A stretch of 36,606 nucleotides of DNA from the NCBI GenBank assembly GCA_003131625.1, contig PKVY01000066.1:105429-142034 (forward strand), written 5' to 3'. The first letter of the stretch is position 1, and each line of letters begins with the position of its first letter. A model generated the notes under the pieces. The model did not search any database and had not been told where the DNA came from. It saw nothing but the letters and a program-made list of their open reading frames with translations. This DNA comes from Acidobacterium sp. GTDB taxonomy: Bacteria; Acidobacteriota; Terriglobia; Terriglobales; Acidobacteriaceae. Position numbers and translations under genes: made by a program. Shown in pieces: positions 1 to 15,347 of the stretch.

Positions 1-2999
1 ACGATGCCGATGAGCAGAATGATGCCGATGATGGCGACCACGCTCAGGTCCTGCCGAAAGATCATGAGCGCCAGCAGCGCACCCACTCCCGCCGACGGCA
101 GTGTGGAAAGAATCGTGACCGGGTGAATGAAGCTTTCATACAGGACGCCGAGCACGATGTAGACCGTGACCAGCGCGGCGAGGATCAGCAGCGCTTCATT
201 CGAAAGCGAACCTTTGAAGGCCGCCGCCGTCCCCTGGAAGGACGACTGCAGACTCGCGGGGAAATGCAGATCCGTCGCAGCCTTGTCGATATCCGTGATC
301 GCCGTGCCCAGCGAAGTATTGTCCGCCAGGTTGAAGGAAACCGTCACCGACGGGAACTGTCCCTGATGATTGATCGACAGCGCCTCCGTCGTCGTGGTGG
401 CATGCGTAAAGGCGCTCAGCGGGATGGCGCTTGCGCCCACACTGGACGTCGTCGTGTTGGGAGTCGTCCCCGCGGTGGTGCCGCCGCTTGCCGATGACGT
501 CCCCTGCGTGCTCGTGGTCCCGCCCAGCACCCTCGCGGGCGCGGTCACCACTCCGGACGACGGCGTGTACTTGACCGAGCTGGTAAGCGCGTTCGACCCT
601 GCCGACGCTGACGCGGACGACGAAAACGAAGTGACGGCGCCCGCCCCGCTTGCCCCGGAAGACGCGCTGCTCTGGATGTAGAGGTCGCCCAGGTTTGCCG
701 GATCCTGCTGCCACTGGGGCGAGGTTTCCAGCACCACGTGGTACTGGTTGAGCTGCGTATATAAGGTGCTGATCAGGCGCTGGCCAAAGGCGTCGTACAA
801 CGTGTTATCGATGGTCGTCGGTGCAATGCCCAGCCGCGAAGCCGTCACGCGATCGATGATCAGCGAAACCGCCTGTCCCCCCGTCTGCTGATCCGTAGCC
901 ACGTCTTCCAGCTCCGGCAGCTTCTTCAACTGCGCCACAAACTTGTTCGTCCACTCGTTCAGCTCGTCCGTATTCGGATCTTCCAGCGTGTACTGGTACT
1001 GGGTGCGGCTCACGCGATCGTCCACCGTGATGTCCTGCACGGGCTGCATATACATGTGCATCCCGGTCACGGCAATGTTGTTCTGCAGCCTCCGGATCAC
1101 GTCGGACGCGCTGATGCTTTTCGGGGACCGCTGCTTCAGCGGCATCAGGTTGATCGAAATCCGCCCACTGTTCAGCGTGGTATTGATCCCGTCCGCGCCA
1201 ATAAAGGACGAAACGCTCTCGACCGCCCCGTCCTGCAGTATCTCGTTGACCAGCTGTTGCTGGTTCGCTGCCATTGCTTTGAACGAAATGTCCTGCGGCG
1301 CCTGGGAGATACCCTGAATCACGCCGGTGTCCTGCACCGGAAAGAAGCCCTTGGGGATCACGATGTACAAAACGATGGTCAGCACCAGGGTGCCCAGCGC
1401 CACCAGCAGCGTGATCCCCTGATAGCGCAGCACCACCCGCAGCGTGCGCCCATAAAAATCGATCATGCTTCTGAACACCCGCTCCGACGCGCGGTAGAAG
1501 CGGGTCTGCTGCGCCTCCGGGTTGTGGCGCAGGATGCGCGCGCACATCATCGGCGTCAGGGTCAGCGAGACCACCGCCGAAATCACGATCGTCACCGCCA
1601 GCGTCACGGCGAATTCGCGGAACAGCCGCCCTACCACGTCGCCCATGAACAGCAGCGGGATCAACACCGCGATCAGCGAGACGGTCAGCGAAATGATGGT
1701 GAACCCAATCTGCTCCGCGCCGGTCAGCGCCGCCTCCATCGGCGTCATCCCCTCTTCCAGGTAACGCGAGATGTTCTCGATCATCACGATGGCGTCGTCC
1801 ACCACAAAGCCGGTGGATATGGTCAGCGCCATCAGCGAAAGGTTATCGAGGCTGTAGCCCAGCATGTACATCGCCGCAAACGTGCCTACCAGCGAGAGCG
1901 GCACCGCCACACTGGGAATAATCGTCGCGTACAGACTGCGCAGGAAAAGGAAGATGACCAGCACCACCAGGCCGATGGTGAGCATCAGTTCGAACTCGAC
2001 GTCGTCCACGGAAGACTGAATGCTGGTGGTCATGTCGGTTAGCGTCGACACGCGAATCGACGCCGGCAAATTCGCTTCCAGCTGCGGCAATATCTTCTGA
2101 ATGCTTTTGACAACGGTGATCGTGTTAGCGCCCGGCTGTCGCTGGATGTTAAGAATGATGGCCGGCGTTTTGTTCATCCACGCGGCCTGCAGGTTGTTTT
2201 CCACGCCGTTGATCACGCTGGCGACGTCGTGGACGAATACCGGCGCTCCATTACGGTACGCGACAACCACGTCCGCATAGTCGCTGGCTTCGGTGATCTG
2301 ATCGTTGGAGTCGATCTGGTAATCCTGGCGCGGCCCGTCGAAGTTGCCCTTCGCGGAATTCACGCTGGTATCGGTCAGCGCGGTGCGCAGGTCCTCCATG
2401 TTCAGGCCGTAGGAGGCCAGCTTGACCGGATTAGCCTGGATGCGCACCGCCGGCTTCTGCCCGCCGCTGATGCTCACCAGCCCCACGCCACTCAGCTGGG
2501 AAATCTTCGGCGCCAGCCGCGTGTCCACCAGATCCTCCACCTGCGACAGAGGCATCGAATCCGACGTGATCGCCATGGTCAGGATCGGCGCGTCGGCAGG
2601 ATTGGTCTTGTTGTAGACCGGGGGCGCCGGCAGATCGGAGGGCAGGAACGATTGCCCGCCGTTGATCGCGGACTGCACTTCCTCCTCGGCCACGTCGATC
2701 GACAGCGAAAGGTTGAATTGCAGCACGATGACCGAAACGCCCCCGGCGCTGGTCGAGGTCATCTGGCTCAGGCCCTGCATCTCTCCGAACTGCCGCTCCA
2801 GAGGCGCGGTGATCGTGGTCGCCGTCACGTCCGGGCTCGCGCCAGGGTAAAACGTCAGCACCTGAATCGTCGGATAGTCGACTTCAGGCAGCGCCGAGAC
2901 CGGTAGCTGCGTGAACGCCACGATGCCCACGAGCAGAATCGCGGCCATCAGCAGCGACGTCGCCACCGGCCGCAGAATAAATGGGCGGGACGGACTCAC
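1..2999 (-). CDS. RND multidrug efflux permease, MdtB/MdtC type (3' end beyond window)
   Basis: Inner-membrane RND permease that would drive proton-coupled export across the envelope with the adjacent fusion protein. The frame is open from GTG 2999 to base 1, giving 999 residues with the C-terminus outside the window; the family is about 1040 aa. The start (SPSRPFILRPVATSLLM) is typical. TM4 carries the proton-relay pair in GFVVDDAIVMIEN, and two porter/TM repeats are recognisable. GTG 2999 shares GTGA with the stop of the upstream fusion-protein gene, so the two are translationally coupled. Odd: about 80 Ser/Thr/Gly/Ala-rich residues (about 777-858) are inserted between LYIQSS and PLSAFTH, where MdtB has only a short loop of the docking subdomain. 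No outer-membrane factor is seen; it may lie beyond base 1. Family confident, substrate unknown. Confidence 0.93.
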   Translation of the reverse strand, partial: MSPSRPFILRPVATSLLMAAILLVGIVAFTQLPVSALPEVDYPTIQVLTFYPGASPDVTATTITAPLERQFGEMQGLSQMTSTSAGGVSVIVLQFNLSLSIDVAEEEVQSAINGGQSFLPSDLPAPPVYNKTNPADAPILTMAITSDSMPLSQVEDLVDTRLAPKISQLSGVGLVSISGGQKPAVRIQANPVKLASYGLNMEDLRTALTDTSVNSAKGNFDGPRQDYQIDSNDQITEASDYADVVVAYRNGAPVFVHDVASVINGVENNLQAAWMNKTPAIILNIQRQPGANTITVVKSIQKILPQLEANLPASIRVSTLTDMTTSIQSSVDDVEFELMLTIGLVVLVIFLFLRSLYATIIPSVAVPLSLVGTFAAMYMLGYSLDNLSLMALTISTGFVVDDAIVMIENISRYLEEGMTPMEAALTGAEQIGFTIISLTVSLIAVLIPLLFMGDVVGRLFREFAVTLAVTIVISAVVSLTLTPMMCARILRHNPEAQQTRFYRASERVFRSMIDFYGRTLRVVLRYQGITLLVALGTLVLTIVLYIVIPKGFFPVQDTGVIQGISQAPQDISFKAMAANQQQLVNEILQDGAVESVSSFIGADGINTTLNSGRISINLMPLKQRSPKSISASDVIRRLQNNIAVTGMHMYMQPVQDITVDDRVSRTQYQYTLEDPNTDELNEWTNKFVAQLKKLPELEDVATDQQTGGQAVSLIIDRVTASRLGIAPTTIDNTLYDAFGQRLISTLYTQLNQYHVVLETSPQWQQDPANLGDLYIQSSASSGASGAGAVTSFSSSASASAGSNALTSSVKYTPSSGVVTAPARVLGGTTSTQGTSSASGGTTAGTTPNTTTSSVGASAIPLSAFTHATTTTEALSINHQGQFPSVTVSFNLADNTSLGTAITDIDKAATDLHFPASLQSSFQGTAAAFKGSLSNEALLILAALVTVYIVLGVLYESFIHPVTILSTLPSAGVGALLALMIFRQDLSVVAIIGIILLIGI

Positions 3000-4432
3000 G
3001 GGGCGTTACTCTCACCAGAAATGGTCGTTTGCGTATCCGGTATGCCGACTTTGGAGATGATGATGTCAGATTGGTCCTGCAGTTTATCGAAGCTGCTGTC
3101 GGCCACCATGACGCCGGATTGAATCCCCGTCACCGCGGTCCATCCATTGTCGGTGGCTCCAGTCTTCACGATCTGCATCACGACGTGGAACTGGGCTTTT
3201 CCGCCGCTCCCACTCGCGCCACCGCTCGCGCTCCCGCTCCCCTTCTGGCCCGCGCCGGTTCCCTGGCTTCCTCCGCCCTTCTGGCTCCCGCCGCCAGAAC
3301 TCGTGCCGCCGCTCGGACTCGAGCTGCTGCCACCCTGCGACGACGCACTCGGGTTTCCCGGTCCCGGCTTGATCAGATAGACAAACGCCGTGTCCCCATT
3401 GTGCTGGATCGCCGAGGACGGAACCATAATCTGGTTCTCGAGCGTGTTCACCAGCAGCCGTGTATTGACGAATTCGTTGGGGAACAGCGCCCCGGTCGCG
3501 TTCTGAAATTCCGCGCGCAGCTTCACGGTGCCCGTGGTCGTGTCGATCTGATTGTCGACTGTGGCCAGCCTTCCGGTCGCGACTTGAGTCGTGTTGGTGC
3601 GGTCCCACGCTTCGACGCTCAGTTTTGCCCCCTTGCGCATCTGCGCCAGCACCTGGCCCAGATTGTCTTCAGCGAGCGTGAAAATGACGGTGATGGGCTG
3701 CATTTGCGCCACCACCACCAGGGTCGTCGTCGAGTTCGCCGTCACCAGATTGCCCGGGTCCATCAGGCGCAGGCCCACGCGGCCGCTGATCGGCGAAGTG
3801 ATATGGCAGTAACCCACCTGCACCTGGTCGTACTGCACTGTGCCCTCGTCGTTCTTCACCGTCCCCTGGTCCTGCAGCACCAGCTTTTCCTGGTCCTCCA
3901 GCGTTTGCCGCGGGATCGCATTCTTCGCCCATGCCTGCTGATAGCGCTCCAGATCCATCTGCGCTTCGGCCAGCAGATTTTGATCGCGTTCCAGCGCCCC
4001 CTGCGCCTGTGCCAGCTGCGCCTCATAAGGGCGGGCGTCGATATCGACCAGTGGATCGCCTTTTTTCACCATCTGGCCCTCGCGATAATGCACCTCGGCG
4101 ATGACCCCCGTGACCTGAGCAGTGATCGAATCGGTGTACACCGAGGTGACCGTCCCGATGGCTGGCAAATAAATGCCGAGGCTGCCCGTTTTCGAGGTTG
4201 CGGGAACCACCGGCACCGGCACTCCGGCCAACATTCCGCGTCGCCCGCCGCCGCCCATAGCCGCTGCCTGGCTTTTTTGGTGCTGTGTGATGACCCAGTA
4301 AAAGAGCAGGCCAAAGGCGATCAGAACCACCGCCCAGATCCAGCGGTGGCGGCGCTTCCGCGCTGGAGGCGTGGTGGACGGAGGCTGCTGATGATCCGGC
4401 GGGGCAATCGAAGCGGAAGGTTGGGAGCTCAT
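2996..4432 (-). CDS. RND efflux membrane fusion protein, MdtA-like
   Basis: Periplasmic adaptor of a tripartite RND pump, 478 aa from ATG 4432. That start puts a short Ser/Pro-rich cytoplasmic tail before a single anchor (about 30-52, WIWAVVLIAFGLLFYWVI); an in-frame extension to 4552 adds residues with no family likeness. Order of parts: anchor, first beta strand (GIYLPAIGTV), lipoyl half-motif (VHYREGQMVKKGDPL), alpha-hairpin (AQAQGALERDQNLLAEAQ), second lipoyl half (ITSPISGRVGLRLMDPGNLV), beta-barrel and membrane-proximal domain. Odd: a Gly/Ser-rich stretch of about 55 residues (about 357-411) splits a beta-hairpin between VYLIKPG and QFHVVMQIVKTG. The stop overlaps the RND start by 4 nt. 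It is likely the first gene of the operon; no convincing promoter was found upstream. Confidence 0.93.
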   Translation of the reverse strand: MSSQPSASIAPPDHQQPPSTTPPARKRRHRWIWAVVLIAFGLLFYWVITQHQKSQAAAMGGGGRRGMLAGVPVPVVPATSKTGSLGIYLPAIGTVTSVYTDSITAQVTGVIAEVHYREGQMVKKGDPLVDIDARPYEAQLAQAQGALERDQNLLAEAQMDLERYQQAWAKNAIPRQTLEDQEKLVLQDQGTVKNDEGTVQYDQVQVGYCHITSPISGRVGLRLMDPGNLVTANSTTTLVVVAQMQPITVIFTLAEDNLGQVLAQMRKGAKLSVEAWDRTNTTQVATGRLATVDNQIDTTTGTVKLRAEFQNATGALFPNEFVNTRLLVNTLENQIMVPSSAIQHNGDTAFVYLIKPGPGNPSASSQGGSSSSPSGGTSSGGGSQKGGGSQGTGAGQKGSGSASGGASGSGGKAQFHVVMQIVKTGATDNGWTAVTGIQSGVMVADSSFDKLQDQSDIIISKVGIPDTQTTISGESNAP

Positions 4433-4938
4433 CTTCTGTTTTGTCGGTAGTTTTTTCGGTCTGAATCGTTCAAAGTGGGTTTTCCGAGGGGGAACAACGT
4501 GGCCGCCCGAACAGGCGGCGGGCGAAATCGCGTCAAATCCGGAGTTTATCACCGCAGCGAACTGCCCTGCCCCGAATCCAGAGAACGAATCCTATGGCCG
4601 ACAGCGGTTCCGTGGCAGAGGCACAAAGAGATCGGTCCTGCCGCGGCATTGCAGTTAAGGACGAGTGAACCGGACAAATGGTCGCAAACTGGATCACAAC
4701 CCCGACCCATGCCGAAAGTAGCCTCGGCTTCACCGAGGTCGCACCTCGAAAATCCTTCTTACGGAACCGTTACTGGAAGGTATCCGGGGACCCGACGAGT
4801 CCAGCCCGCCAGGGTACTATCGACTCATCGGTAACAACTTACGACTGATGCGACTGCATCCAACCCACTACCCTGACGTGGCTCCGCCGCAACCATTTCC
4901 CCTGCGTCCGCAGCCTGAAGAACTCCTCTTGTGACTGC
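4433..4938. other. Divergent intergenic region between fusion-protein and ABC exporter genes
   Basis: No convincing gene here; the short frames lack a ribosome site and protein-like composition. It should hold the promoters of both flanking operons. Visible structures are an 18-nt hairpin GCCGCC-CGAACA-GGCGGC at 4502-4519, and overlapping alternative hairpins at 4722-4748 (CCTCGG/CCGAGG versus CGAGGT/ACCTCG). A weak -10-like TACTAT lies at 4815-4820 on the plus strand without a good -35. A TTGACG on the minus strand (4531-4536) has no matching -10. Confidence 0.5.
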
Positions 4939-6762
4939 ATGAGCGGCAAAGGTAATTCGGGTACCCACCACGCGTGGGGCGATCGCATACGCGCCCTGCG
5001 CAACGTGCCCACGGTCCTGAAGATTCTCTGGGAGTCCGGCCCCGCCGTTGTTACATGGGGATTAATCCTGCGCGTGGTCGTCTCCTTTACCCCATGGGCC
5101 ATCGGGTTCGCGGCCTCGCGCATCATCGGCGGCGTCAAACAGGCCATCGACCACCAGCCTCTGCCGGCGCATTTCTGGTGGATCGTCGCTGCCGAAGTCG
5201 CCTTCGCGCTGCTCAACGGTGCGCTCTCCCGCGCCATCGACTACAGCGATTCCCTGCTCTCCGATCGCTACACCCACTACGTTAGCGTCCGCGTCATGCG
5301 TCAGGCCGCGCGCCTCGACCTCACCACCTACGAGGACCCCGACTTCTACGACCGCCTCGAACGCGCGCGCGTCCAGGCCACCGACCGCCTCGCCATGATC
5401 CAGCAGATGGGCCGGCTTTTCCAGCAGACCCTGACCACGCTGATCTGGTCCATCCAGCTGGTTTGGTACTCGCCCTGGCTCCTGTTGCTGCTCATCGTCG
5501 GCGTTGCGCCTTCCTTCGTCGCCGAAACCCACTTCGCTTTCCTCGGCTACGCGAAGAATTTCCGCCAGACCCCCGTCAAGCGCATCATGGACTACCTGCG
5601 CATGGTGGGCGGCAGCAAAGAAGCCGCCAAAGAACTCAAGCTCTTCAATCTCAGCGATTACATTACTCGACGCTTCACCACCCTTTCCGAGCAGATTTAC
5701 CGCGAAAACGTCGCACTCTCCAGCAAAAAGCTGCTCGTCGGCGGCCTGCTCTCGCTGATCGGCACCTGCGGCTACTATGGCGGTTATCTCTACGCCATCA
5801 TCGAGGCCGTCCATGGCCGCTACTCCATTGCGTCCTTCTCGCTGATCACCATCGCCATCCAGCAGTCCAGCGCCAATCTGCAGCAGGTCTTCTCTATCTC
5901 TTCCGGCATCGCCGATCAGGCGCTCTTCCTCACCGACCTCATCGCCTTCTTCGACATGCAGCCGACGGTGCAGTCCAGGCCCAACGCGCTGCCCGCGCCC
6001 AAGCCCATCCGCCGCGGCTTCGAATTCCGCAACGTCTCCTTCGCCTATCCCGGCAGCGAGCGCCGCGTCCTCAAAAACTTCAACTTCACCATCGAGCCCG
6101 GCCAGCGCGTCGCGCTCATCGGCGAAAACGGCCAGGGGAAAACCACCGTCGTCAAACTCATCACGCGCCTCTACGATCCCACCGAGGGTCAGATCCTTCT
6201 CGACGGCGTCGACCTGCGCGACTATTCGCTCGACGACCTGCATCGCGAGATGGGCGTCATCTTCCAGGATTTCATGCGCTATGAAATGACCGTCCGCGAG
6301 AACATTGGCGTCGGCCAGATCGAAGTCTCCCATAGCGATGCGGACATCGCGCTCGCGGCACAGAAGAGTCTCGCTGCCGAGGTCGTTAAGAAGCTTCCCG
6401 GTGGCTACGACCAGATGCTGGGTCGCCGCTTCGTCACCGGTCTCGATCTCTCCGGCGGAGAATGGCAGCGCATCGCCCTCGCCCGCGCCTACCTGCGCGA
6501 CGCGCAGCTGCTGATCCTCGACGAGCCGACCGCGGCCCTCGATGCAAAAAGCGAGCTGGAAGTCTTTCAACGCTTCGCCGAGCTGACCGCGGGCAAAATG
6601 GCTCTGCTCATTTCCCATCGATTTTCAACGGTGCGCATGGCCGACCGCATCGTAGTGCTCGCCGGCGGCCGTCTTGTTGAAGATGGAACCCACCAGCAAC
6701 TGATCGCGCTGGGCGGCCAGTACGCGGAGATGTTCGAGATGCAGGCGGCAAGTTATCGCTAG
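4939..6762 (+). CDS. ABC exporter, fused membrane and ATPase domains (NdvA-like context)
   Basis: 607-aa half-size ABC exporter expected to act as a homodimer in the inner membrane. Residues about 30-330 form the six-helix membrane domain (WESGPAVVTWGLILRVVV; LVWYSPWLLLLLIVGVAP; LLVGGLLSLIGTCGYYGGYL). The ATPase domain follows with Walker A GENGQGKTT (about 395-403), signature LSGGEWQR (about 504), Walker B LLILDEPTAALD (about 524) and switch histidine LLISHRFST. The signature, Walker and His residues are all intact, so it should be active. The glucan synthase-like gene starts 37 nt downstream on the same strand, suggesting one operon and a role in exporting its product, as NdvA/ChvA does beside NdvB/ChvB. 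The membrane domain does not by itself identify a glucan exporter; a peptide or lipid substrate is possible. The ATG has only a weak ribosome site. Confidence 0.93.
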   Translation: MSGKGNSGTHHAWGDRIRALRNVPTVLKILWESGPAVVTWGLILRVVVSFTPWAIGFAASRIIGGVKQAIDHQPLPAHFWWIVAAEVAFALLNGALSRAIDYSDSLLSDRYTHYVSVRVMRQAARLDLTTYEDPDFYDRLERARVQATDRLAMIQQMGRLFQQTLTTLIWSIQLVWYSPWLLLLLIVGVAPSFVAETHFAFLGYAKNFRQTPVKRIMDYLRMVGGSKEAAKELKLFNLSDYITRRFTTLSEQIYRENVALSSKKLLVGGLLSLIGTCGYYGGYLYAIIEAVHGRYSIASFSLITIAIQQSSANLQQVFSISSGIADQALFLTDLIAFFDMQPTVQSRPNALPAPKPIRRGFEFRNVSFAYPGSERRVLKNFNFTIEPGQRVALIGENGQGKTTVVKLITRLYDPTEGQILLDGVDLRDYSLDDLHREMGVIFQDFMRYEMTVRENIGVGQIEVSHSDADIALAAQKSLAAEVVKKLPGGYDQMLGRRFVTGLDLSGGEWQRIALARAYLRDAQLLILDEPTAALDAKSELEVFQRFAELTAGKMALLISHRFSTVRMADRIVVLAGGRLVEDGTHQQLIALGGQYAEMFEMQAASYR

Positions 6763-6799
6763 CGAAAGTCGCGTACTACGGAGCTGATGGAGCTGTGTT

Positions 6800-9700
6800 A
6801 TGACGGGTCAGGCGACAATGATCAACGAACAGCGCTTGCGGGACGCGGGTCTGGTGCCGGAGAAGCTCCGCGCCGCCGCACGCGAAGACGCGCATCGCTG
6901 GGGCGCGGCCCACGGCTCCAGGGACCTCGCCGCTTTTGACGCGCGCGTCGAATCCGTCCGCCGGCATCTGGAGGCTTTGTTCCGCGAGCTCGATCAGCTG
7001 CCGACCGAAGGCTGGCCCGGACCCGAGCCTCTGCTCGAAATTCGCGAGAATCCGCGCATGATGCACTCTGTCCTGGCGGAACTCCGCACCGTGCGCCGCA
7101 AACTCCGCCGCCTGCCCAGCGCTGTCACCGGCGATCATCAGGATGAACCCCGCGCCACCGCGGTCGCCGCCGCCTATCTCGCCGCCAGCGCCTCCATCTG
7201 GAACGCGGATGCGTTCCGCATCTACCTCGACGAGCTCCAGCGCGCGGAGCCTCTGTTGCTCGAAGAACTGTGGGTCCTGCCCGTCGCGCTGCGCTTCCTT
7301 CTGCTGGAGCAGATCCTGGATCAGGCCGCGCCTCGCCTCGAGGCTCTCTCCTTTCCCGATGATGCTCCGCACTTCGAGGGCCCAGCCGCCGACCCCGCTT
7401 TCGCCAAACTCCTCGCCACCCGCATTCAGTCCCTGCGCGAAATCGCCTACGTCGACTGGTTCTTCGTCATGGAGCCGCTCGTCGTCTTCGATGCGATCCT
7501 CCGCGAAGACCCGGCTGAAGCCTATTCGAGCATGGACTTCGACAGCCGCGAGGTCTATCGCAAACAGGTCTCCCGCATTGCCCGCTATTCCGACAGCACG
7601 GAGAACGAGGTTGCTCGCTGGGCCATCCAGCTGGCCACGGCCGCCAGGCAGCGCCCCATCGTCGACGAGCGCGTCCACGTTCGCCGCGCCCACGTCGGCT
7701 ACTACCTCATCGATCGCGGATTCGAAGAGCTGAAGTCGCGCATCGGCTACCATCCCCGCTTCATCGACCGCGTCCGCGATGCGCTGCACCGTTATGCCGA
7801 CGACTTCTACATCGGCGGCATCGAGGTCCTTACCGTCGTTCTCATCGGTGCGGTACTGCTGCCGTTGATTCCGAACCACTCCATCCTCGGTGGGTTGACC
7901 CTGGCGTTTCTGCTCCTGCTCATCCCCGCGACCCAGGGCGCGGTGGACCTGGTCAACAACACCATCTCTTCCGTCTTTCGCCCCCTGCCGCTGCCGAAAA
8001 TCGACCTGACCGACGGCATCCCCGCCGACTTCACCACGCTGGTGGCCGTCCCCACCCTCCTCCTGAACGAGACCCAGGTCCGCGAGCTGGTGCAGGATCT
8101 CGAAGTTCGCGGCCTCGCTAACCCCGATCCGAACCTCCACTTCGCCCTGCTCACTGACTTGCCCGACTCGGTCAGCCGCCCCCGCGAAAACGACAGGGAT
8201 CCGCTGGTCGATCTCGCGATTCGCCTCATCGACGATCTGAACGCCCGGTATCAGGGCCAGAGCAAATACGGCCACTTCCTCCTGCTCCATCGGCATCGCA
8301 TCTTCAATGCACGCCAGGGCGTCTGGATGGGCTGGGAGCGCAAGCGCGGCAAGCTGCTCGACCTGAACAATTTCCTCATCAGCAATTTCGACGCATTTCC
8401 GGTGAAGGCCGGCGATATCGGCGTGCTCCGGCGCGTGCGCTACATCATCACGCTCGATTCTGACACCCAGCTGCCGCGCGGCACCGCCCACGCCATGGTC
8501 GGCGCCATGATGCACCCGCTCAACCGCGCTGTCATCGACCCGGAGCGTCGCATCGTCACCGAGGGTTACGGCATCCTCCAGCCGCGTGTCGGCGTCAGCG
8601 TCCACTCCGCGGCGCAGTCGCGCATGGCCAACATCTACTCCGGCCAAACCGGCTTCGACATTTACACGCGCGCCATCTCTGACGTCTATCAGGACCTCTA
8701 CTCGGAAGGCAGCTTCACCGGCAAAGGTATCTACGAAGTCGCCACCCTGCACGCCGTGCTGGAAAAGCGCTTCCCACGCAACGCCCTGCTCAGTCATGAC
8801 CTGATCGAAGGAGCCTACGCCCGCGCCGGCCTGGCCACCGACGTTGAAGTCATCGACGACTACCCCTCGCACTACAGCGCGTACACGCGCCGCAGGCATC
8901 GCTGGGTGCGCGGCGACTGGCAAGTCGCGCAGTGGCTCTTCGGTCGCGTGCCCGACGAGTCCGGCAAATTCGTCCGAAATCCCATCTCCACCATCGCTCG
9001 CTGGAAAATTCTCGACAATCTCCGTCGCTCCCTGGTCGAACCCGCGACCATGGTCCTGCTCGTTGCTGGCTGGCTCGGCCTGCCTGGCGGAGCGCTTTAC
9101 TGGACCCTCGTCACGCTTTTCCTGCTCTTCGTTCCGGTCTTCATCCAATTGATCTTCGGCCTCGGTCGCTCCATGTTTATCGAGCAGGAAGGTGCTGCCC
9201 AGGATGTGGTCGCGGGATTCCAGCAGGCGCTTTTCACCACCCTGCTGACGCTCGCGTTTCTGCCCCACCAGACCATGTTGGCCATCGACGCCATCGTACG
9301 TGCCATGGTCCGCCGCATGGTCACCGGGCAACGCCTGCTCGAGTGGGAAACCGCCGCGGAAGCCGAATCCTCCCAGCGCCGCACCACGGCCGTCGACCGC
9401 TATCTGGCCTTCACTCCGATTGTCGCCGTGATGCTGGCCGCCATCGTTGGCGTTACCCACCCCATCTCTCTGGTGGCTGCGGCGCCCATCCTCATCCTCT
9501 GGGGTTTCGAGCGCGACATCACGCGGTGGCTCAACAAGCCGCCTCGCGAGCCGCGCCAGCAGTTGGATCGCGAAGACGACCTCTTCCTGCGCGAGCACGC
9601 CCTGCGTGTGTGGCGGTTCTTTCACGAATTCGGCGGTGCACGCCACAACTACCTCATCCCCGATAATGTCGAGGAAGAGGGCCTCTTCGAAGCCGCCCGC

Positions 9701-11389
9701 GTTTCCCCCACCAATCTCGGTCTGCTTTTCAACGCCCGCCAGGCCGCCTGCGAATTCGGCTTCCTCACCGCGCCGGAGTACGCCGAGCTCATGCACCGCA
9801 GCTACGCGACCATGGCGAAGCTGCCCCTGTACCGCGGCCATCTCTACAACTGGTACACCACCGATACGCTGGAGCCGCTGCTGCCCATCACCGTCTCCTC
9901 CGTCGATAGCGGCAACCTCGTCGCTTCGCTCTACACGCTGAAAACCGGAACCCTCTCGCTGCTGAAGCGGCCTCTTCTCGAACCGCGCCTCTTCGATGGC
10001 ATCGAGACGCACCTGCGCCTCCTGCAGTCTTTGAAGGATGTGTCCGAGCCGCTGGCGAAGCTGCGGCCTCCCGAAGACCCCGGTGCCTGGCTCCCGTGGG
10101 TTCTCTCCTCCGAAACGCAGGCCGCATTCGCCAATCTGCCCCCTTACTCCGAACCATCACCCGACGAACAACTCTGGTGGTCGAACGAAACCCGCGCCCG
10201 CCTGAAGGCAATCGCCACGCTGGTCAGCGACTATCTGCCCTGGCTCAAGCCGGAATACGCATCGCTCCACAGTCTGCTGTTCGAAAAGCTCCCCGTCGAC
10301 GCGCCGCTTCGCCCAACGCCTGCCCTCGCAGCACCAGGGGCCACCGTTGTTCCTCCTGCGCTGGAGGATTCTCCCGGCTTCCTCGCTGCTATCGAGCAAC
10401 GGCTCAGCCGACCGCACCTCATGCCCGACTCGGCCGAGACAGCGGCGCTTATGGAACGGCTGCGCATCGATCTCGTCGCCGCTGGCGACCGTCTGCGAAA
10501 CCTCATCGAAAGCCTGCGCCTGGTCTCCTCCGAAGCCAGCCGCCTTGCCGATGAGACCGACTTCGCCTTCCTCGTCAACAAGGATCGCCTCCTGCTCTCC
10601 ATCGGATACGAGTTTTCGACTGGCAAGATTCACTGGGCGTGCTACGACATGCTTGCGTCGGAGGCCCGCATCGCCACCTACATCGCCGTCGCCCGCGGTG
10701 AGCTCAGCCAGCAGGGCTGGTTCAAAATGTCGCGCGTCCACACCCAGGCCTATGGATGCTCGGTGCTGCTCTCCTGGACCGGCACCATGTTCGAGTACCT
10801 CATGCCCGCGCTCTGGATGCGCAGCTACCCCGAGACCCTGCTTTCCAACTCTCTCCTGGGCGCGGTCGGAATTCAGCGCGCCTTTGCCCGCGAGCACAAC
10901 CTTCCCGTCTGGGGAATCTCAGAGTCCGGCTACGCGGCGAAGACCGACCAGGGCCACTACCACTACCAGGCTTACGGTATTCCCCAAATCGCGCTCAAGT
11001 GGGATGCGACCGCCGGCCCGGTCATCTCGCCCTACTCAACGTTTCTGGCGCTCAACGTCGAGCCCACTGCCTCCATCCGCAACCTGCGCCGCATGGCCGA
11101 TCAAGGATGGACCGGCGCTTACGGCTTCTACGAGGCCATCGACTTCACTGGAGGCAAGCCCGAAGCTGTACGCGAATGGATGGCTCACCACCAGGGCATG
11201 TGCATCCTTGGCTTGCTCAATCTGCTCGAGGAGAACGCCATGCAGCGCTGGTTCTACTCGAACGCGCAGATGCGCTCGGTGGAGCTGCTGCTCCACGAAA
11301 AGCCCATGCGCGAAGCCGCGACAAAATCGGCCAGCCCACCCACCTCCAAAAAAGCGAAGCGCCCCGCCGCTCTCAAAAAAGCCGGCTGA
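6800..11389 (+). CDS. Cyclic beta-1,2-glucan synthase-like protein (GT84 + GH144/GH189-like, no GH94)
   Basis: 1529-aa membrane glycosyltransferase. ATG 6800 has TGGAG 7 nt upstream. The N-terminal third is a helical region specific to the family. A membrane pair (about 350-395) precedes a GT2-fold catalytic domain: LDSDTQLP (about 551-558, the DxD), SFTGKGIYE, SHDLIEGAYARAG (about 665, catalytic acid) and RRRHRWVRGDW (about 697, the (Q/R)xxRW motif), the arrangement of GT84. Further membrane spans lie at about 750-910. The C-terminal part (about 980-1510; WGISESGYAAK, HYQAYGIPQIALKW, EWMAHHQGM) is the 'glycoamylase-like' fold related to GH144/GH189, the middle domain of cyclic glucan synthases. 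Those enzymes are about 2800 aa and end in a GH94 phosphorylase domain controlling chain length; here the protein stops before it and the next gene is metH. The product may therefore be linear or longer beta-glucan. Substrate is inference. Confidence 0.88.
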   Translation: MTGQATMINEQRLRDAGLVPEKLRAAAREDAHRWGAAHGSRDLAAFDARVESVRRHLEALFRELDQLPTEGWPGPEPLLEIRENPRMMHSVLAELRTVRRKLRRLPSAVTGDHQDEPRATAVAAAYLAASASIWNADAFRIYLDELQRAEPLLLEELWVLPVALRFLLLEQILDQAAPRLEALSFPDDAPHFEGPAADPAFAKLLATRIQSLREIAYVDWFFVMEPLVVFDAILREDPAEAYSSMDFDSREVYRKQVSRIARYSDSTENEVARWAIQLATAARQRPIVDERVHVRRAHVGYYLIDRGFEELKSRIGYHPRFIDRVRDALHRYADDFYIGGIEVLTVVLIGAVLLPLIPNHSILGGLTLAFLLLLIPATQGAVDLVNNTISSVFRPLPLPKIDLTDGIPADFTTLVAVPTLLLNETQVRELVQDLEVRGLANPDPNLHFALLTDLPDSVSRPRENDRDPLVDLAIRLIDDLNARYQGQSKYGHFLLLHRHRIFNARQGVWMGWERKRGKLLDLNNFLISNFDAFPVKAGDIGVLRRVRYIITLDSDTQLPRGTAHAMVGAMMHPLNRAVIDPERRIVTEGYGILQPRVGVSVHSAAQSRMANIYSGQTGFDIYTRAISDVYQDLYSEGSFTGKGIYEVATLHAVLEKRFPRNALLSHDLIEGAYARAGLATDVEVIDDYPSHYSAYTRRRHRWVRGDWQVAQWLFGRVPDESGKFVRNPISTIARWKILDNLRRSLVEPATMVLLVAGWLGLPGGALYWTLVTLFLLFVPVFIQLIFGLGRSMFIEQEGAAQDVVAGFQQALFTTLLTLAFLPHQTMLAIDAIVRAMVRRMVTGQRLLEWETAAEAESSQRRTTAVDRYLAFTPIVAVMLAAIVGVTHPISLVAAAPILILWGFERDITRWLNKPPREPRQQLDREDDLFLREHALRVWRFFHEFGGARHNYLIPDNVEEEGLFEAARVSPTNLGLLFNARQAACEFGFLTAPEYAELMHRSYATMAKLPLYRGHLYNWYTTDTLEPLLPITVSSVDSGNLVASLYTLKTGTLSLLKRPLLEPRLFDGIETHLRLLQSLKDVSEPLAKLRPPEDPGAWLPWVLSSETQAAFANLPPYSEPSPDEQLWWSNETRARLKAIATLVSDYLPWLKPEYASLHSLLFEKLPVDAPLRPTPALAAPGATVVPPALEDSPGFLAAIEQRLSRPHLMPDSAETAALMERLRIDLVAAGDRLRNLIESLRLVSSEASRLADETDFAFLVNKDRLLLSIGYEFSTGKIHWACYDMLASEARIATYIAVARGELSQQGWFKMSRVHTQAYGCSVLLSWTGTMFEYLMPALWMRSYPETLLSNSLLGAVGIQRAFAREHNLPVWGISESGYAAKTDQGHYHYQAYGIPQIALKWDATAGPVISPYSTFLALNVEPTASIRNLRRMADQGWTGAYGFYEAIDFTGGKPEAVREWMAHHQGMCILGLLNLLEENAMQRWFYSNAQMRSVELLLHEKPMREAATKSASPPTSKKAKRPAALKKAG

Positions 11390-11457: not shown

Positions 11458-11475
<18 letters not shown>
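11416..11475. repeat. Four tandem 15-nt repeats (G-Y-Y-GACCG core) at convergent gene ends
   Basis: Four consecutive 15-nt units start at 11416, 11431, 11446 and 11461, each opening with GCTGACCG, GCCGACCG, GTTGACCG or GCTGACCG and then diverging. They lie between the stop of the glucan synthase-like gene and metH, and the last unit encodes the final five residues of MetH. On the plus strand they read as pentapeptide-like ADRxx units, but no ribosome site or conserved frame supports a gene. They are probably a local micro-duplication. Confidence 0.6.
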
Positions 11476-14207
<2,732 letters not shown>

Positions 14208-14211
<4 letters not shown>

Positions 14212-15347
14212 CGGCTGCCCTCGCTCAGCAGGAGGCTGGACTCCTCATCGTGCGTGGTCAGCCTGCGCGGGGGGTCGCCTTCAAGCGCCTTGGCAATCGC
14301 CGCAATGTGCTCGGGGGTGTTGCCGCAGCAGCCGCCTGCAATATTGATCAGCCCTCCTCGCGCGAATTCGCTCAGGTACCGAGCCATATCCGAAGGCCCC
14401 AGATCGAACCCCGTTGGCGAAAGCGGATTGGGCAAACCCGCGTTCGGATAACACGAAATCGCCACATTCGCCTTTTCGCTCAGCTCCTCGAGAAACGGAT
14501 ACATCAGGTCAGGGCCGAGCGAGCAATTGAGCCCGATCGAAAACGGACGGGCGTGCTCCATCGCGTTCCAAAAGGCCCCAACCGTTTGCGCAGAGATCAT
14601 CGTCTCGCCGCCACGTCCCACCGCGGCGGAGATCATGATCGGCAGTTCCTTATTCCCGGCAGTCAACCCGTCCTCATCGAATACCTCCCGAATCGCAACC
14701 AGCGCCGCCTTCGCATTCAGTGAATCGAAAATCGTCTCAACCAGCAGAAGATCGGCGCCGCCCGCGATCAGCGCACGCACCTGCTGCTTGTATGCAACCC
14801 TTACCTGATCGAAAGTGACGACCCGGAACCCGGGATCATCGGCATCGGGCGAGTTGGAAAGCGATACGGTGAGCGGTCCGATCGCTCCGGCCACGAACCG
14901 TTGTCGCCCCGTTGCGTTCGCGATGCGATCTGCCCACTCGCGGCATTGCCGCGCCGACTGCTCGTTGATCTCCCACGCCAGGTTGCCCAGGAACGGATCG
15001 TCGATCACCTTCTGGTAGAACGCAGGATCCTTGCGCCCCCCGTGCTCCCGCGGATCCTCGACAAAAAACTCGCTCTGCGCGATGCTGGTTGCCCCAAACG
15101 TGTTCGTCTCGATGATGTCGGCGCCCGCTTCCAGAAACCGCCGGTGAATGTCGCCGATCATCTTCGGCTGGGTCAGCGTAAACAGATCGCCGTTGTTCAG
15201 CAGATCCTTCTTCGCATCCGCGAAGCGCTCCCCGCGAATATCGGGCTCCTTCATCCCGTACGTGCGAATGGTCGTGCCCATGGCGCCGTCGATGATGGCA
15301 ATGCGGTCCTCGAGGATCTTGTGCAGCGGATGCTGGATGTCTGTCAT
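14208..15347 (-). CDS. Methionine synthase homocysteine-binding subunit (MetH N-terminal module)
   Basis: 379-aa homocysteine S-methyltransferase barrel. The N-terminal [13 protein letters not shown] is the hallmark of the MetH N-module, and the zinc ligands are visible as Cys275 (GLNCSLGPD) and Cys340-Cys341 ([12 protein letters not shown]). It ends where the module normally joins the folate domain, and its stop overlaps the next start by 4 nt. This is therefore one MetH encoded as two coupled polypeptides, not an independent methyltransferase. A B12-independent role with another methyl donor cannot be excluded. The ATG has only a weak ribosome site (TAAGGT about 15 nt upstream). A plausible promoter at 15378-15406 would leave a leader of about 25 nt, too short for a B12 or SAM riboswitch. 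Confidence 0.93.

Follow-up and report, generated by a model that had tools for sequence, protein, structure and literature searches.

A GT84-GH189 synthase without a GH94 domain and its adjoining ABC exporter: a putative two-gene cyclic beta-1,2-glucan system in Acidobacteriaceae

Gene organization of the locus

A gene pair encoding an ABC exporter and a glucan synthase was identified in the window, a stretch of 36,606 nucleotides from Acidobacterium sp. (contig PKVY01000066.1 of assembly GCA_003131625.1). The two open reading frames lie on the same strand and are separated by 37 nt (Table 1). The exporter also has an ABC_membrane score of 17.9 bits, which is below the cut-off of 28 for that model (Pfam). 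The next gene past the synthase is metH, which is located on the opposite strand (11458-14211), so that less than 70 nt is available for any GH94 remnant. The first-pass annotation had described a 1529-aa protein that ends before the GH94 domain and a fused ABC exporter upstream of it, and this layout was borne out by the coordinates of the open reading frames and by Pfam. The architecture is not a chance arrangement, as it recurs across the family.

Several other features of the window were observed. A divergent membrane-fusion protein with HlyD/biotin-lipoyl domains is encoded on the minus strand at 2996-4552, adjoining the pair. The cobalamin-dependent methionine synthase appears to be encoded by two adjacent genes on the minus strand (11458-15347), one for the homocysteine S-methyltransferase domain (379 aa) and one for the pterin, B12 and activation domains (917 aa). 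An open frame of 1078 aa runs antisense to the synthase (6776-10012, minus strand); it is probably a codon-usage shadow, and further long antisense frames are present elsewhere in the window.

Table 1. Coordinates of the two genes and of the synthase domains in the window
Feature	Coordinates	Strand	Evidence
ABC exporter, TMD and NBD in one chain, 607 aa	4939..6762	+	ABC_tran 125 bits; paired with the synthase
GT84-GH189 synthase without GH94, 1529 aa	6800..11389	+	8rf0 match, E 1.8e-208
N-terminal domain, residues 1-204	6800..7411	+	predicted part of a Cgs-like fold
GT84 catalytic domain, about residues 401-760	8000..9079	+	D553, D555, Y622, D667, R701, W702, Q708; fold matches 8rf9/8rf0
GH189 cyclisation (transglycosylase) domain, about residues 918-1506	9551..11317	+	E1288 acid/base, E1375 nucleophile, H1463/H1464
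C-terminal tail, residues 1507-1529	11318..11386	+	predicted unstructured

Domains and catalytic residues of the synthase

The synthase aligns to Cgs/NdvB of Agrobacterium tumefaciens (8rf0) over query residues 207-1059 and 1231-1523 and also to the GH189 domain of TiCGS (8wy1), and PF10091 was detected at residues 1284-1486 by Pfam. No GH94 model was matched in the protein (Pfam, E 0.01), and the open reading frame stops at the GH189 boundary. The AlphaFold2 model of residues 1-915 (mean pLDDT 88.7) matches 8rf9/8rf0 with query TM scores of 0.82/0.83, and that of residues 895-1529 (mean pLDDT 90.2) has 8wy1 as its best Foldseek match (TM 0.80/0.88). The pLDDT falls below 50 from residue 1512, within the tail, and the GH94 region of Cgs starts at about the position where this tail lies.

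For comparison, 119 synthase sequences were chosen, and removal of three identical duplicates left 116, comprising 44 of the short form (without GH94) and 72 of the full-length form. The short loci L120 and L129 (split or cut) and the full-length locus L085 (GH189 part without a BLAST piece) were left out. A GH94 match was found in the locus of 0/44 short and 72/72 full-length sequences, and in all 44 short sequences the tail after the last GH189 position is only 6-42 aa long. The numbering of residues was anchored on those named in excerpts of PMC10901819, PMC10834661 and PMC11842490. The GT84 residues listed in Table 1, which include Y622, the aligned equivalent of the priming tyrosine, were invariant in 44/44 short and 72/72 full-length sequences, as were the GH189 residues E1288, E1375, H1463 and H1464. 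The threonine of the TGKG motif is variable, being kept in 40/44 short and 37/72 full-length sequences.

The GT84 motifs and the GH189-like domain proposed in the first-pass annotation were therefore confirmed by homology to 8rf0 and 8wy1 and by the retained residues. Loss of the GT84 active-site residues, which that annotation had named as counter-evidence, was not observed in any of the aligned sequences. In its predicted fold and catalytic residues the C-terminal half has the properties of the TiCGS cyclisation domain and belongs to GH189.

Distribution and phylogeny of the short form

A synthase match was found in 168/300 genomes of the family and in 104/396 genomes of the phylum. Among the family matches listed that span query residues from 130 or before to 1470 or beyond, the open frames measure 1365-1690 aa, and several of them read through an in-frame stop. 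The exception is a frame of 2024 aa with an internal stop in G033, where the open reading frame itself is 1489 aa. At least five family genomes contain the full-length form (G064, G065, G084, G166 and G171). Outside the family, most of the listed frames are about 2650-3120 aa, with one of 3319 aa, and shorter ones may be cut by contig ends; short forms occur there in G437 and G650 (family f67) and in G043 and G041 (family f2). The best 80 of 587 confirmed named loci include 23 short forms, all with Acidobacteriota titles (one of them, L129, runs off its contig before a GH94 domain could follow); the other 57 come from many phyla, are full-length and match GH94. The synthase of Terriglobus roseus DSM 18391 (L131) measures 1493 aa. 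The closest named relative among the loci listed is L107, from Acidobacterium sp. palsa_345.

The short form is thus usual in the family and is not a broken gene. Degeneration to a truncated, inactive synthase, or an artefact, is scarcely credible. A few relatives are split between frames, and some of the listed family matches carry an in-frame stop; against this, the length is similar across the family, the catalytic residues are invariant in 44/44 short sequences and the gene pair is conserved. A pseudogene or assembly artefact was accordingly rejected, as the short form is family-wide and its catalytic residues do not vary. The frame-split relatives are the synthase of G011 (L012) and the exporter of G005 (L003/L107), and these splits reflect either sequencing error or decay.

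In G437, a genome of another family, a short synthase (1424 aa) and a full-length synthase (2844 aa) are encoded together on one contig (L078 and L079), which suggests that the two forms have different roles there.

Short and full-length synthases are separated by a single branch with SH support of 100 in an unrooted FastTree tree of the 116 sequences, and the same split was obtained with IQ-TREE from 52 sequences (SH-aLRT 100, unrooted). The midpoint of the FastTree tree falls on this branch. In the IQ-TREE tree the short group is joined to the full-length synthases of G581 and of a Parachlamydiales MAG (SH-aLRT 94). Because the trees are unrooted, both a loss and a late gain of GH94 would be compatible with them; the wide spread of full-length forms favours loss.

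As a measure of divergence, the distance within each domain was scaled to that of the GT domain, using alignment columns occupied in both groups and with intervals obtained by resampling sequences; the pairs compared are not independent. The ratio for the N-terminal domain is 2.24 [2.18-2.33] in short forms versus 1.23 [1.19-1.25] in full-length forms. The corresponding values are 1.42 versus 0.94 (GH189C) and 1.46 versus 1.05 for GH189, 1.76 versus 1.33 for residues 205-400, and 1.75 versus 1.48 for the stretch 761-905. In the short forms the distance relative to GT is thus raised in every other domain, and most of all in the N-terminal domain. The stretch before the GT domain is also about 90 aa shorter (median) and more divergent in short than in full-length synthases. 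The N-terminal domain and GH189C are domains that contact GH94 in Cgs. There, a subdomain inserted in the GH94 region is in contact with the N-terminal domain, and a glucan-binding surface extends between the CY (GH189) and GH94 pockets (PMC10901819, excerpt). The order of divergence would fit a release from contacts with GH94, as support and not as proof; as all domains shift in the same direction, a slower GT domain in the short forms may explain part of it.

The paired exporter

An intact exporter open reading frame of at least 540 aa was present in 39 of the 44 short sequences; in L107 it lies in two frames, and in L021 it is partly covered (1.5 kb flank). L082, L099 and L100 begin at a contig edge, which leaves 41 short sequences with upstream sequence. 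An exporter relative was found directly upstream and on the same strand in 41/41 of these, so that the linkage to a beta-1,2-glucan synthase that is one criterion of NdvA/ChvA proteins is present. The gaps for the 39 intact paired exporters range from -423 to 132 nt, the negative values reflecting mechanically chosen starts. Upstream sequence is shorter than 1 kb in seven of the 72 full-length sequences and reaches at least 4 kb in 58; no related exporter lies directly upstream in any of the 65 with at least 1 kb. An ABC match of at least 100 bits was found in the flanks of 2/72 full-length sequences, namely about 4.4 kb upstream in L155 and 384 nt upstream of the synthase in L165, where the match is marginal (100 bits, exactly the threshold). 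Downstream flanks of the named full-length loci are mostly about 2 kb, and the exporter search on that side extends to that distance.

The association was also compared across 68 genomes, which were picked from earlier listings and not at random, with matches counted at E 1e-60 or better. A relative with at least 58% identity (at least 753.9 bits) was found in 21/21 short-form genomes versus 0/47 others, the latter comprising 15 with a full-length synthase, one with a remnant and 31 without a synthase. Among these 47, G581 holds a relative of 51% identity (650.1 bits), and the rest give 323.9 bits or less. The 39 paired exporters cluster together (SH-aLRT 94), and the closest protein outside this cluster is that of G581. 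Identities of exporters and synthases are correlated (r 0.85 over 741 pairs), as expected for jointly inherited genes. Since the short form and the pairing each need one change on the tree, their association across lineages amounts to one event followed by long inheritance. Further support for it comes from three genera (g9, g48 and g50) in which some genomes lack both genes and others contain both.

In G581 the exporter relative is located about 300 kb from the full-length synthase of that genome. It adjoins a divergent PF10091 protein of 484 aa, which is not a synthase (L171:6617-10129, contig C2).

The first-pass annotation had compared the pair with ndvA-ndvB, and this comparison holds in part. 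Like NdvA, ChvA and Cgt, the exporter is a one-chain ABC protein that adjoins the synthase. Unlike them, it scores far below the ChvA and glucan-ABC equivalog cut-offs (TIGR01192, 190.3 bits versus 585.4; NF010178, 245.3 bits versus 733) and thus falls outside NdvA/ChvA by these curated models; its relatives at 58% or more are confined to short-form genomes among the 68 chosen, and it has no counterpart directly upstream of the 65 full-length synthases with at least 1 kb of upstream sequence. Its best solved relatives are exporters of the ABCB1, ABCB19 and MsbA types.

Exporter relatives occur in seven of 35 named genomes with a full-length synthase, with identities of 37-49% at best. These are two Devosia, Dyella, a Gemmatimonadaceae MAG, Komagataeibacter, Pseudomonas oryzihabitans and a Steroidobacteraceae MAG. 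No synthase or GH144-like open reading frame was found by BLAST near the distant exporter relative in 6/7 of these stretches. In Komagataeibacter a 44% exporter lies about 4.4 kb upstream of a full-length synthase, with other open reading frames between them, and the frame just before the exporter looks regulator-like by eye. This protein was read as a generic exporter, yet it comes closest to a counter-example.

Proposed function of the gene pair

The locus is best read as a two-gene cyclic beta-1,2-glucan system that makes larger or more variable rings and has a dedicated exporter, with a probability of roughly 0.6; we infer the linkage of the product, ring closure, ring size and the cargo of the exporter. 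In the proposed mechanism the GT84 domain would prime itself on tyrosine Y622 and elongate a beta-1,2-glucan from UDP-glucose, and GH189 would free the chain as a ring via transglycosylation. As the protein has no GH94 phosphorylase, phosphorolytic trimming would not occur in the same protein, and ring size would be set by elongation versus cyclisation by GH189. Rings would then be expected to exceed the usual DP 17-25 or to vary more in size. The adjacent exporter, dedicated to the synthase, would carry the rings across the inner membrane.

Known proteins bear on this proposal in different ways. When Brucella Cgs is truncated in its phosphorylase domain, the rings become larger and are retained by the cell, also when the Cgt exporter is present (PMC11071196, excerpt); a normal exporter that does not secrete large rings would explain why the short form has its own. 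The GH189 domain of TiCGS on its own forms rings from DP 17 upwards, with no hydrolysis (PMC10834661, excerpt), and synthesis of 1,2-beta-glucan by the GT domain is possible in the absence of GH94 (PMC3960220, excerpt). When the GH94 region of the Agrobacterium enzyme is truncated, wholly or in part, function is lost in a hypo-osmotic assay (PMC10901819, excerpt), so activity without GH94 cannot be assumed.

A linear beta-1,2-glucan, in which GH189 would only remodel the chain because it is ill-positioned without the GH94 scaffold, is an unlikely product. It would agree with the proposal that the GH94 surface of Cgs is a platform arranging the chain before cyclisation (PMC10901819, excerpt) and with the greater divergence of GH189 relative to GT in short forms. 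Both catalytic glutamates and both histidines are nevertheless kept in 44/44 short sequences, and the TiCGS domain cyclises by itself; on these grounds a cyclic product appears likelier than a linear one. By analogy, larger rings would also fit the Brucella truncation better than a linear product does.

A glucan of another kind, in which a GT84 domain of altered specificity would introduce a different linkage or an additional sugar, is very unlikely. The exporter is not NdvA by model, and GT is the slowest domain relative to the rest, more so in the short forms, which may reflect a constraint of its own. Such a product is at odds with the invariant GT84 motifs, with the presence of GH189, whose known activity is on beta-1,2-glucan, and with the PF10091 protein that adjoins the closest exporter outside the group (G581, 51%); the window's genome also encodes a protein related to solved beta-1,2-glucanases.

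The proposed cyclic system can be extended, though this extension is doubtful: the short synthase and the exporter may act as one coupled machine for synthesis and export, in which ring closure and export, and not phosphorolysis, set the size of a distinct large-ring envelope glucan of Acidobacteria, the GH94 scaffold that Agrobacterium requires being dispensable.

Comparison with known cyclic glucan synthases

The N-terminal half and GH189 of the window's synthase are homologous to those of A. tumefaciens Cgs (8rf0) in sequence and predicted fold, and the catalytic and priming residues are identical; the window's synthase differs in having no GH94 region and a shorter, more divergent N-terminal domain. 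From the full-length Cgs sequences in general, the short forms are set apart by one branch and by the exporter directly upstream. The fold and the Glu/Glu/His catalytic residues are shared with the TiCGS cyclisation domain (8wy1), although GH189 there is the middle domain of a three-domain protein. The engineered Brucella Cgstr, which makes larger rings, also has no phosphorylase function (PMC11071196, excerpt). These rings remain intracellular when the normal exporter is present, whereas the window's form is natural and has its own exporter adjoining it.

Known Cgs homologues share the GH94 active-site residue (PMC10901819, excerpt), and no description of a natural GH94-less CGS was found among the open-licence PMC papers listed. 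A lineage in which GH94 is missing and the synthase each time adjoins a member of one exporter group can serve as a natural experiment on the coordination of chain length, ring closure and export, and offers a natural test of how bacteria, here soil Acidobacteria, set the size of their envelope sugars. It also suggests that Acidobacteriaceae have a beta-1,2-glucan that has apparently gone unstudied, and offers biotechnology a synthase roughly half as large as the usual ones.

Other glucan-related genes in the window's genome

One synthase match was found in the assembly of the window's genome (93.7% complete, 148 contigs). A full-length CGS elsewhere in the genome, which the first-pass annotation had regarded as evidence against its reading, was rejected on this basis. 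A separate GH94 gene, for which a search had been suggested, was not found in this assembly with PF06165, and PF17167 gave one weak match (about 42-43 bits) on another contig. The matching locus (L001, G000:C139:18294-19169) contains an open reading frame (L001:196-2595) of 799 aa with a weak Tat-signal match, a weak GH94-superfamily match and a DWND motif, and the protein faintly resembles cellobiose phosphorylases (E 3.6e-07). From its sequence it may be an unusual GH94-related enzyme located in the periplasm.

Trimming of the rings in trans, by a separate GH94 enzyme or another glucanase, is quite unlikely. Stand-alone GH94-like open reading frames of 806-882 aa with strong PF06165 matches do exist in the short-form genomes G304, G316, G126 and G112, and the PF17167 protein of the window's genome might be counted with them. 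However, PF06165 has no match in the window's genome and is found in 25/200 genomes of the order, where part of the matches are the full-length synthases themselves, so that a separate GH94 as a rule is unsupported; the Tat-like signal would also place the PF17167 protein probably apart from the cytoplasmic synthase.

A GH144-like protein of 471 aa with a Tat-like signal by eye is encoded in the window's genome (L175:6782-8197, G000:C99). It matches 8xul with an E value of 4.4e-60 and is related to solved beta-1,2-glucanases, which makes turnover of beta-1,2-glucan in the window's organism plausible.
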